A DNA stretch of 64,000 bases. It comes from Bacteroidota bacterium. Its GTDB lineage: Bacteria; Bacteroidota; Bacteroidia; Chitinophagales; Chitinophagaceae. The notes under the pieces were generated by a model. The model saw only the letters and a program-made list of their open reading frames with translations, was not told where the DNA came from and made no database searches. The stretch's first letter is position 1. Each line of letters begins with the position of its first letter. The DNA lies in contig JAGWRO010000048.1 of NCBI GenBank assembly GCA_028876495.1, positions 1 to 64,000 on the forward strand, written 5' to 3'. Position numbers and translations under genes: made by a program. Positions 13,109 through 14,354 of this stretch are shown here, piece by piece.

Positions 13109-13435
13109 TCAATTTATTTTCGGATTGTTTTTGTGCCTTTCCGCATCACGTAGACTTTTCTTTTCAAAATTTTTCTGAAGCGCTGAAGTCAGATCTACGC
13201 CAGTTTGATTGGCAAGACACATTAAAACCCAAAGTACATCCGCCATTTCATCAGCAAGATCTTTTTCATTCTCATTTTCTTTAAAAGATTGCTCCCCAAA
13301 TTTTCTTACCATCAACCTCGAAAGTTCTCCAACTTCTTCCATTAAAATACCCAAATTGGTAAGCTCACTGAAATAACGAACACCGGTGGTTGTTATCCAT
13401 TGGTCAATTTCTTTTTGGGCTTGTTCTATTGTCAT
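13109..13435 (-). CDS. MazG-like nucleotide pyrophosphohydrolase
   Basis: 108 aa; EEVGELSRLMVRKFGE…LADEMADVLWVLMCLAN (ExxE…ExxD MazG motif). Confidence 0.85.
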   Translation of the reverse strand: MTIEQAQKEIDQWITTTGVRYFSELTNLGILMEEVGELSRLMVRKFGEQSFKENENEKDLADEMADVLWVLMCLANQTGVDLTSALQKNFEKKSLRDAERHKNNPKIN

Positions 13436-13451
13436 AATAATTAATTTATTT

Positions 13452-13477
13452 CACGAATTTTAGCGAATTACACGAAT
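13452..13477. repeat. Left arm of 26-bp inverted repeat flanking the GxxExxY gene
   Basis: CACGAATTTTAGCGAATTACACGAAT; reverse complement matches 13870-13895 at 25/26 positions. Confidence 0.9.
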
Positions 13478-13482
13478 ATTTA

Positions 13483-13806
13483 CTATTTGACTATACGTTT
13501 CCATACCAATGACTTTTCGCCAAAATTTATTACCATAGCCAACTTCTGATCTGAAACAGCTAAATAACTTAATGCTTGTGAAAAGTGTGCAGGAATTAAC
13601 GCAACTGTAGATTTAATTTCTAAAATAATTGAATCATAAATAAAGAAATCTGCTGCATAAGGATTACGCAAGGTTTTCCCTTTATATTTTACAGAAAATC
13701 TCTTTTCTCTTTCAAATGGAATATTGTGCTCTAGAAACTCCATTTCCATGGCATCTTTATAGTTAATTTCCTTTAAACCCATTCCAAGCGTTTTATGAAT
13801 TTCCAT
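13483..13806 (-). CDS. GxxExxY family protein (predicted PD-(D/E)XK-like nuclease fold)
   Basis: GLKEINY = GxxExxY; YAADFFIYDSIILEIKS = D…ExK motif; ends SLVWKRIVK. Homology appears to extend upstream of the ATG. Confidence 0.85.
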   Translation of the reverse strand: MEIHKTLGMGLKEINYKDAMEMEFLEHNIPFEREKRFSVKYKGKTLRNPYAADFFIYDSIILEIKSTVALIPAHFSQALSYLAVSDQKLAMVINFGEKSLVWKRIVK

Positions 13807-13869
13807 GCATATATCAATTATTGTAAAAGATTCATTTTTATTAAAAGTTCAGCCATGGGCTATGTTTTA

Positions 13870-13895
13870 ATTCGTGTAATTCGCTAAAATTAGTG
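13870..13895. repeat. Right arm of 26-bp inverted repeat flanking the GxxExxY gene
   Basis: ATTCGTGTAATTCGCTAAAATTAGTG. Confidence 0.9.
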
Positions 13896-13901
13896 TAATA
13901 A

Positions 13902-14354
13902 TTATTCCCTGTTCTTCGAATCAATCATTATTGTAACCGGGCCATCGTTTATTAATTCCACCTTCATGTCTGCGCCAAATTTTCCGGTAGCTATTTCTTT
14001 TTCAAGGTCAGTTTCAAGCTGGTTAATCAACTTTTCATATAGTGGAATGGCAATCACGGGTTTACTCGCTTTAAGATAAGAAGGCCGGTTTCCCTTCTTA
14101 GTAGAAGCCTGGAGGGTAAATTGGCTGACCAGCAAAATATCACCATTAATTTCCTTAACAGAAATGTTCGGCACTTCGTTTTCATCATTAAAAATGCGAA
14201 GGTTTACAATTTTATTACTCAACCATTTGATATCTTCTTCATTATCTGAATCTTCAATACCTGCCAACACCAGTAAACCAACTTTTATTGCAGATTTTAC
14301 AGTATTATCAATGGTTACAGAGGCTTTTGATACCCTTTGAATGACTGTTCGCAT
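13902..14354 (-). CDS. dtd: D-aminoacyl-tRNA deacylase
   Basis: 150 aa; MRTVIQRVSKASVTID, LLVSQFTLQAST, FGADMKVELINDGPVTI. Confidence 0.95.
   Translation of the reverse strand: MRTVIQRVSKASVTIDNTVKSAIKVGLLVLAGIEDSDNEEDIKWLSNKIVNLRIFNDENEVPNISVKEINGDILLVSQFTLQASTKKGNRPSYLKASKPVIAIPLYEKLINQLETDLEKEIATGKFGADMKVELINDGPVTIMIDSKNRE

Follow-up and report, generated by a model that had tools for sequence, protein, structure and literature searches.

A GxxExxY gene between inverted repeat arrays at a dtd-mazG junction, a probable relic of a minimal mobile cassette

Layout of the dtd-mazG locus

The window, i.e. the whole 64-kb stretch of DNA that was analysed, includes a dtd gene and a MazG-like gene separated by a single open reading frame (ORF) for a GxxExxY protein, which lies between two inverted arms. 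The features of the locus are as follows, arms and parts of arms being given without strand.

13109..13435, minus strand: MazG-like gene, downstream neighbour, outside the putative mobile unit
13446..13901, minus strand: putative mobile unit of ~456 bp, arm - GxxExxY gene - arm
13446..13477: outer arm on the mazG side, downstream of the GxxExxY ORF, TTATTTCACGAATTTTAGCGAATTACACGAAT
13446..13477: units of the mazG-side arm, (C)ACGAATT / GCGAATT / ACGAATT, spaced 9-10 nt
13483..13806, minus strand: GxxExxY ORF as called, 107 aa, starting at an internal ATG
13807..13856, minus strand: ancestral N-terminus (MAELLIK.ESFTIIDIC), separated from the ORF by the loss of 1 nt near 13834-13838
13870..13901: outer arm on the dtd side, upstream of the GxxExxY ORF, inverted copy of the mazG-side arm
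13886..13901: part of the dtd-side arm, and all that is left of the cassette between dtd and mazG in the related genome G018
13902..14354, minus strand: dtd (D-aminoacyl-tRNA deacylase), upstream neighbour, context
G000:C24:93497-93541: solo copy of the mazG-side window arm

The arms (13446-13477 and 13870-13901) are 32 nt each, complementary at 30 of 32 positions, with 392 nt between them. The mazG-side arm lies 5 nt from the GxxExxY stop codon, and the dtd-side arm abuts the dtd stop codon. An earlier note on this DNA had reported inverted 26-nt copies matching at 25 positions; their location and match were confirmed, and the arms were found to extend further, to 32 nt. In an inverted-repeat scan (score at least 16, loop of 60-1300 nt) the arm pair was unique in the window, and the same scan of a shuffled window gave no inverted repeats. 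The pair is 94% complementary, as compared with at most 83% in the other 24 longest pairs. In a single-stranded DNA fold the arms close the unit, and the fold is better than that of 100 of 100 shuffles (z -3.75). No Rfam family matched the unit. A generic repeat was rejected as the identity of the 26-mer, given that at up to three mismatches only its two arms match in the source genome, to which one solo arm is added.

The GxxExxY protein

The ORF matches TIGR04256 (GxxExxY; 3.6e-32, 111 bits, cut-off 35) and PF13366 (PDDEXK_3; 1.2e-27, 97 bits, cut-off 22). In the numbering of a 121-aa frame, it carries G24-x-x-E27-x-x-Y30, D67, E77-x-K79 and Q91xxxY95. With both family cut-offs passed and D67 and E77-x-K79 present, its first assignment as a GxxExxY protein with a D...ExK motif holds. 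Residues G24, E27, Y30, D67, E77 and K79 are present in 99-100% of 118 GxxExxY copies, and H18, D67, E77, K79, Q91 and Y95 are invariant or nearly so across the copies.

No relatives of GxxExxY were found in the PDB by sequence. The structure closest to its AlphaFold model (pLDDT 94) is Cas4 SSO0001 (4ic1; TM 0.60, 103 columns), and further structural matches are to LHK and lambda exonucleases and RecB-type nuclease domains. The set of H, D, ExK and QxxxY residues fits those that we take to be typical of the RecB/Cas4/lambda-exonuclease branch. As judged by the predicted fold, GxxExxY would be a PD-(D/E)XK nuclease like those of this branch, sharing that fold and the residue set with them but differing in being a single 120-aa domain that is associated with its own repeat arms. 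Pairwise dN/dS values of 0.02-0.15 point to strong purifying selection, by which the function of the protein would be kept. GxxExxY had no match among the defence and phage families of PADLOC and PHROG, and carriage by phages or plasmids was rejected, with 0 of 50,697 phage records and 7 of 72,556 plasmids positive.

The ATG at 13806, listed at first as the start of the ORF, proved to be internal, the true family N-terminus lying upstream and being cut off by a frameshift. Relatives start with M(A/S)EL-LFKEE..., and the window carries ATGGCTGAACTTTTAATAAAAATGAATC, which is the same start minus one base near 13834-13838; the intact counterpart in G016 is MAELLFKEESFKIIGIC. The family start in the window, an ATG at 13856-13854 (MAELLIK...), is consequently out of frame with the rest of the ORF. 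An intact in-frame N-terminal helix is absent from the window copy, and its family membership is unaffected. The frameshift may be a draft-assembly error.

The dtd-mazG junction and a second site in related genomes

The dtd-mazG junction carries the cassette in G000, G016, L009 and L027. The G016 cassette is 71% identical to the window copy and has an intact start, with ExK changed to KVK. The closest relative, G018, whose mazG is 93% identical, has a junction of only 38 nt without a cassette. An empty site in relatives, which the earlier note had proposed to look for, is thus nearly realised in G018, but a remnant of ~16 nt of the dtd-side arm, and of that arm only, stays in place. The simplest history to fit these junctions would be one old insertion that was inherited with its neighbours and is decaying or lost in branches; alternatively, insertion at the junction may have been repeated. 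Given the N-terminal frameshift, the loss of the catalytic Glu in the G016 orthologue and the age of the insertion, the window copy is probably a relic and unlikely to be an active element.

In G022, the dtd-mazG junction (L042) holds a different inverted array, AAGTTACGAAGTACGAAGTACC ... GTACTTCATACTTCGTAACTCGTACTT, and the junction therefore seems to attract such elements. At a second site, L096, the GxxExxY ORF is present in G000 and G003 and missing in G001, G002, G004, G007 and G008. The downstream arm of L096 (G000:C64:50468-50809), like that of L206 in G003, contains an ATG that shares the reading frame of the following gene (AAATCATGGTTCAGAC...), whose start codon the insertion may have supplied.

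Inverted arms at other GxxExxY loci

Of 119 related genomes, 80 have GxxExxY genes, at up to 15 copies each, the comparison genomes being one per species and many of them drafts. A first set, drawn from related genomes and from public contigs, comprised 116 loci, of which 70 have an inverted pair with a score of at least 13 within 250 nt of the gene, as compared with 0 of 58 control windows (none above 12). In a second set, 24 of 29 loci scored above 12, leaving 20 of 24 new loci when five already seen were removed; the new loci include Acidobacteria, Geomonas, Opitutia and one MAG labelled Bdellovibrio. Inverted arms are the rule for GxxExxY genes (140 genes, several phyla), and the conservation of the arms across loci that the earlier note had suggested for inspection is borne out by both sets.

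The arms are built of units such as CACGAATT, CGCAAAG, CACAGAG, CGCAGAT, CACTAAG, CACATAG and ACAGGAT, most of which roughly fit the degenerate consensus CRCNRAK and which, on both sides, read toward the gene. The density of CRCNRAK is 10.7 per kb beside the GxxExxY gene versus 1.4-1.9 per kb at a distance of 500-700 nt, and 0.4-2.1 per kb in four-helix-bundle and mazG controls. Some of the loci tested had also served to derive the consensus, a circularity lessened by the second set and by the 46 loci under the inverted-repeat threshold, where the density is also high (10.5 per kb). The palindrome TCCCGATAGCTATCGGGA next to L113/L116 was not counted as an arm, since it is probably terminator-like.

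The closer two GxxExxY proteins are in sequence, the more similar are their arms (Mantel rho 0.49; maximum of 500 permutations 0.09). When only pairs from different genomes and with unrelated flanks were considered, rho was 0.40 (null maximum 0.15), and all 4 such pairs with a protein identity above 80% have common arms. Among pairs from the same genome whose proteins are less than 60% identical, arms are common to 0 of 21. Since the coupling persists across genomes and none of the divergent pairs within a genome match, arm type is not set by the genome; arm sequence follows the protein lineage.

Boundaries and replacement of the cassette

At loci L010 and L011, in two other genomes, a cassette related to that of the window has different neighbours: it follows a gene for an MlaE-like permease and, in L011, precedes an ABC ATPase gene (names read from translations). 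Their similarity to the window spans 13452-13897 and 13445-13900, respectively, and ends at the arms on both sides. Other non-orthologous pairs, for example L096/L108 and L101/L119, behave in the same way, with similarity bounded by the arms. The unit thus recurs at another site with similarity confined to the arm-to-arm span, and the view that arms and ORF form a single unit is upheld. As far as sequence comparison goes, mobility of the arm - gene - arm unit is well supported. GxxExxY is the sole ORF between the arms of the window unit, which had no match to Y1 (PF01797), in agreement with the earlier description of a cassette lacking a transposase. The proposal that TAATAATTA is a target duplication was rejected, because 53 cassettes with clear arms had no consistent direct repeat outside them (mean anchored 0.64 nt).

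A Flavobacterium site flanked by trpS and a plsC-like gene (names read from translations) carries the cassette in forward orientation in G128, G225, G145, G172 and others, and inverted in G208, G237, G136, G217 and G186; the ORF is missing in many genomes. Between G128 and G208, which have opposite orientations, dS is 1.37 for the cassette gene and 0.20 and 0.14 for the flanking genes. The pair G192/G136 is similar, with flank dS of 0.23 and 0.41 and a saturated cassette, and the same-orientation pair G145/G172 has equal values for flanks and cassette. A simple inversion is ruled out, as the divergence between inverted and forward genes far exceeds that of the flanks: the cassette was replaced independently of its flanks by a divergent, reverse-oriented copy. 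The arms in G128 are 103 nt long and 84% identical, and the exchange could be ordinary homologous recombination across such ~100-nt arms. Sites without the ORF often keep arm-like arrays, and not all are clean, G179 having an assembly gap. At L307, L309 and L312 (G212, G206 and G238), CGCAAAG-type arms are present and the GxxExxY gene is gone; in its place lies a short doublet with arms of a different type (CCACAGATT ... AATCTGTGG), a nesting of different doublet families.

Gene-less inverted doublets

Related genomes contain scattered pairs of arms that lack a gene and measure ~105 nt. Copies of the L096 arm (TGTCTGAACCATGATTTGGGG) are scattered over G009, G007 and G010, in many cases as inverted pairs ~90-110 nt apart, and GTCTGAACC-type arms form gene-less doublets in G016, G009 and G007. 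Within 400 kb of G016, 33 matches to the L096 arm family were found, about a dozen as inverted pairs; the doublets are clustered, with ends 86-90 nt apart and with conserved left and right ends. Doublets are located on both sides of a GxxExxY gene in G016 (C1:500348), and two near-identical doublets directly flank one in G009. On visual comparison, a doublet corresponds in its left half to the arm upstream of the cassette gene and in its right half to the one downstream. For the window-type arm, one doublet is known (G016 C1:655592-655712), together with a few solo arrays. In G007, doublets are present and the GxxExxY gene was not detected, so that doublets either persist without the nuclease or are moved by another factor.

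Comparison with known elements

In the REPIN-RAYT system (Bertels and Rainey 2011, PMC3116915), a RAYT gene, which encodes an HUH (Y1) tyrosine transposase, is flanked by inverted short repeats. Dispersed, hairpin-capable inverted doublets of ~100 nt occur without the gene, and a genome has several repeat types, each tied to one gene lineage (PMC3116915). The GxxExxY gene is likewise flanked by inverted copies of short repeats, gene-less doublets accompany the GTCTGAACC-type arms (with a single doublet for the window-type arm), and a genome has several arm types, each with its own GxxExxY lineage and no target duplication. However, GxxExxY is predicted to be a PD-(D/E)XK nuclease and not an HUH enzyme (Y1_Tnp, PF01797), its arms are arrays of 7-8 nt degenerate units and not one short palindrome, and it is often multicopy in a genome. 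As the defining HUH transposase is absent, the cassette was not filed under REPIN-RAYT, which is nearest to it by organisation.

Terminal inverted repeats and short gene-less derivatives are also known from MITEs and insertion sequences, but the cassette has neither a DDE or HUH transposase nor a target duplication. The replacement of cassettes between the same arms is compatible with a homing endonuclease element, in which an empty allele would be cleaved by the nuclease and then repaired from an occupied one. Intervening sequences of 23S rRNA (S23/TIGR02436) are similarly small elements with a single ORF, inverted repeats and no transposase, but GxxExxY is an unrelated protein with no S23 assignment and the window unit lies outside rRNA.

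The analogy with four-helix-bundle elements flanked by inverted repeats, drawn in the earlier note, is supported in the same genomes. Four TIGR02436 genes (L185-L188; G000:C87:40224, C33:16607, C27:4288 and C21:9446) sit between inverted arrays. These arrays, and those at L155-L204, consist of strict 7-nt repeats (TAGTTCG, AGCTATG, GGTTGAT, AAGTTTA and others), with a mean self-identity of 0.61 and 0.63 at lags of 7 and 14 versus ~0.45 at most others, and so differ from the GxxExxY arms in period and in unit sequence. As judged from these arrays, the four-helix-bundle genes are a parallel class.

Proposed mechanism and alternatives

Arms and gene move and evolve jointly, and cassettes are lost or are replaced in either orientation between the same neighbours. 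On this basis, we consider it fairly probable that the window feature is the relic of a widespread, REPIN-RAYT-like minimal mobile cassette with a RecB/Cas4-type nuclease between inverted arrays. The GxxExxY nuclease would recognise its own arms as a hairpin or in paired form and cut there, and cassette and doublets would spread via recombination with the arms as homology, an overall strategy that may be REPIN-RAYT-like or homing-like but uses another enzyme. The cassette would have entered the dtd-mazG junction of the window lineage long ago and then decayed, by frameshift in the window, loss of the catalytic Glu in G016 and deletion in G018. The minimal mobile nuclease cassette of the earlier note is thus retained as a mobile unit but probably not as an active one at this locus; we infer that the nuclease itself drives the movement.

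An unlikely alternative is that the arms are MITE- or REPIN-like ends moved in trans, for example by an HUH/Y1 TnpA, with GxxExxY captured between them as a passenger. Y1 transposase matches, several of them intact, were found in 10 of 10 genomes tested, gene-less doublets outnumber the genes and occur in G007 with no detected GxxExxY, and target duplication is absent, as for HUH elements. A captured gene, though, should not have arms that track its own protein lineage and differ within a genome. G000 has just two Y1 matches, both of them weak (26 and 32 bits) and one interrupted by two internal stops, and arrays of a degenerate unit are unlike single REP hairpins. The strong purifying selection, like the long common occupancy of the dtd-mazG junction, is also in line with a gene that the host maintains. 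That GxxExxY is such a nuclease, or a defence-like one, whose arms are regulatory or terminator hairpins or binding sites for self-control, with exchange by ordinary homologous recombination, seems less likely still. The low dN/dS and the location of arms near start and stop codons agree with it, as do many copies per genome with the fast allele turnover of defence genes and arms long enough to recombine unaided, as in G128. On the other hand, PADLOC and PHROG gave no match, regulatory sites need neither dispersed gene-less doublets nor two-sided mirror arrays, and the similarity of L010 and L011 ends at the outer arm ends, like that of a transposable unit.

It is very improbable that the unit is an RNA element of the intervening-sequence type, with arms that pair in the transcript and are excised and a gene that spreads by reverse transcription or gene conversion. 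The closure of the single-strand fold on the arms and the inverted arrays around four-helix-bundle genes, i.e. those of intervening-sequence proteins, in the same genomes would be expected, but the insertions are intergenic and not in rRNA, with no RNA that needs cutting or rejoining, no Rfam family was matched, and the predicted RecB/Cas4-like fold is of a DNA type.

GxxExxY has no assigned function in the databases searched, and the arms and doublets give it a testable role, that of a mobilising nuclease. With the mobile nuclease cassette as the preferred reading, GxxExxY cassettes would be a second route to the REPIN-RAYT lifestyle, one that does without an HUH enzyme, and could explain where a common type of intergenic repeat comes from, and the matched arm-protein pairs are ready substrates for biochemistry. 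Among open PMC papers, none was found on GxxExxY elements, on the arm sequences or on a nuclease-plus-repeat system of this kind. More tentatively, GxxExxY may be a large unrecognised class of mobilising enzymes that move themselves and doublets via heptamer-like mirror arrays, with a sister class of four-helix-bundle proteins using strict 7-nt arrays. If so, the two classes would explain many short tandem or inverted intergenic repeats in Bacteroidota, Geobacterales, Acidobacteriota and Verrucomicrobiota.

Other units with inverted ends

Two further units, on contig C24 of G000, have inverted ends. A 546-bp unit (G000:C24:174025-174570; L235-L250) has perfect 20-nt inverted ends (GGTAGTGTCTCAGTTTGAAA) and one ORF inside, which looks like a small lipoprotein. 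At G000:C24:240855-241976, imperfect 46-nt inverted ends lie ~1 kb apart around an NmrA-like oxidoreductase gene.
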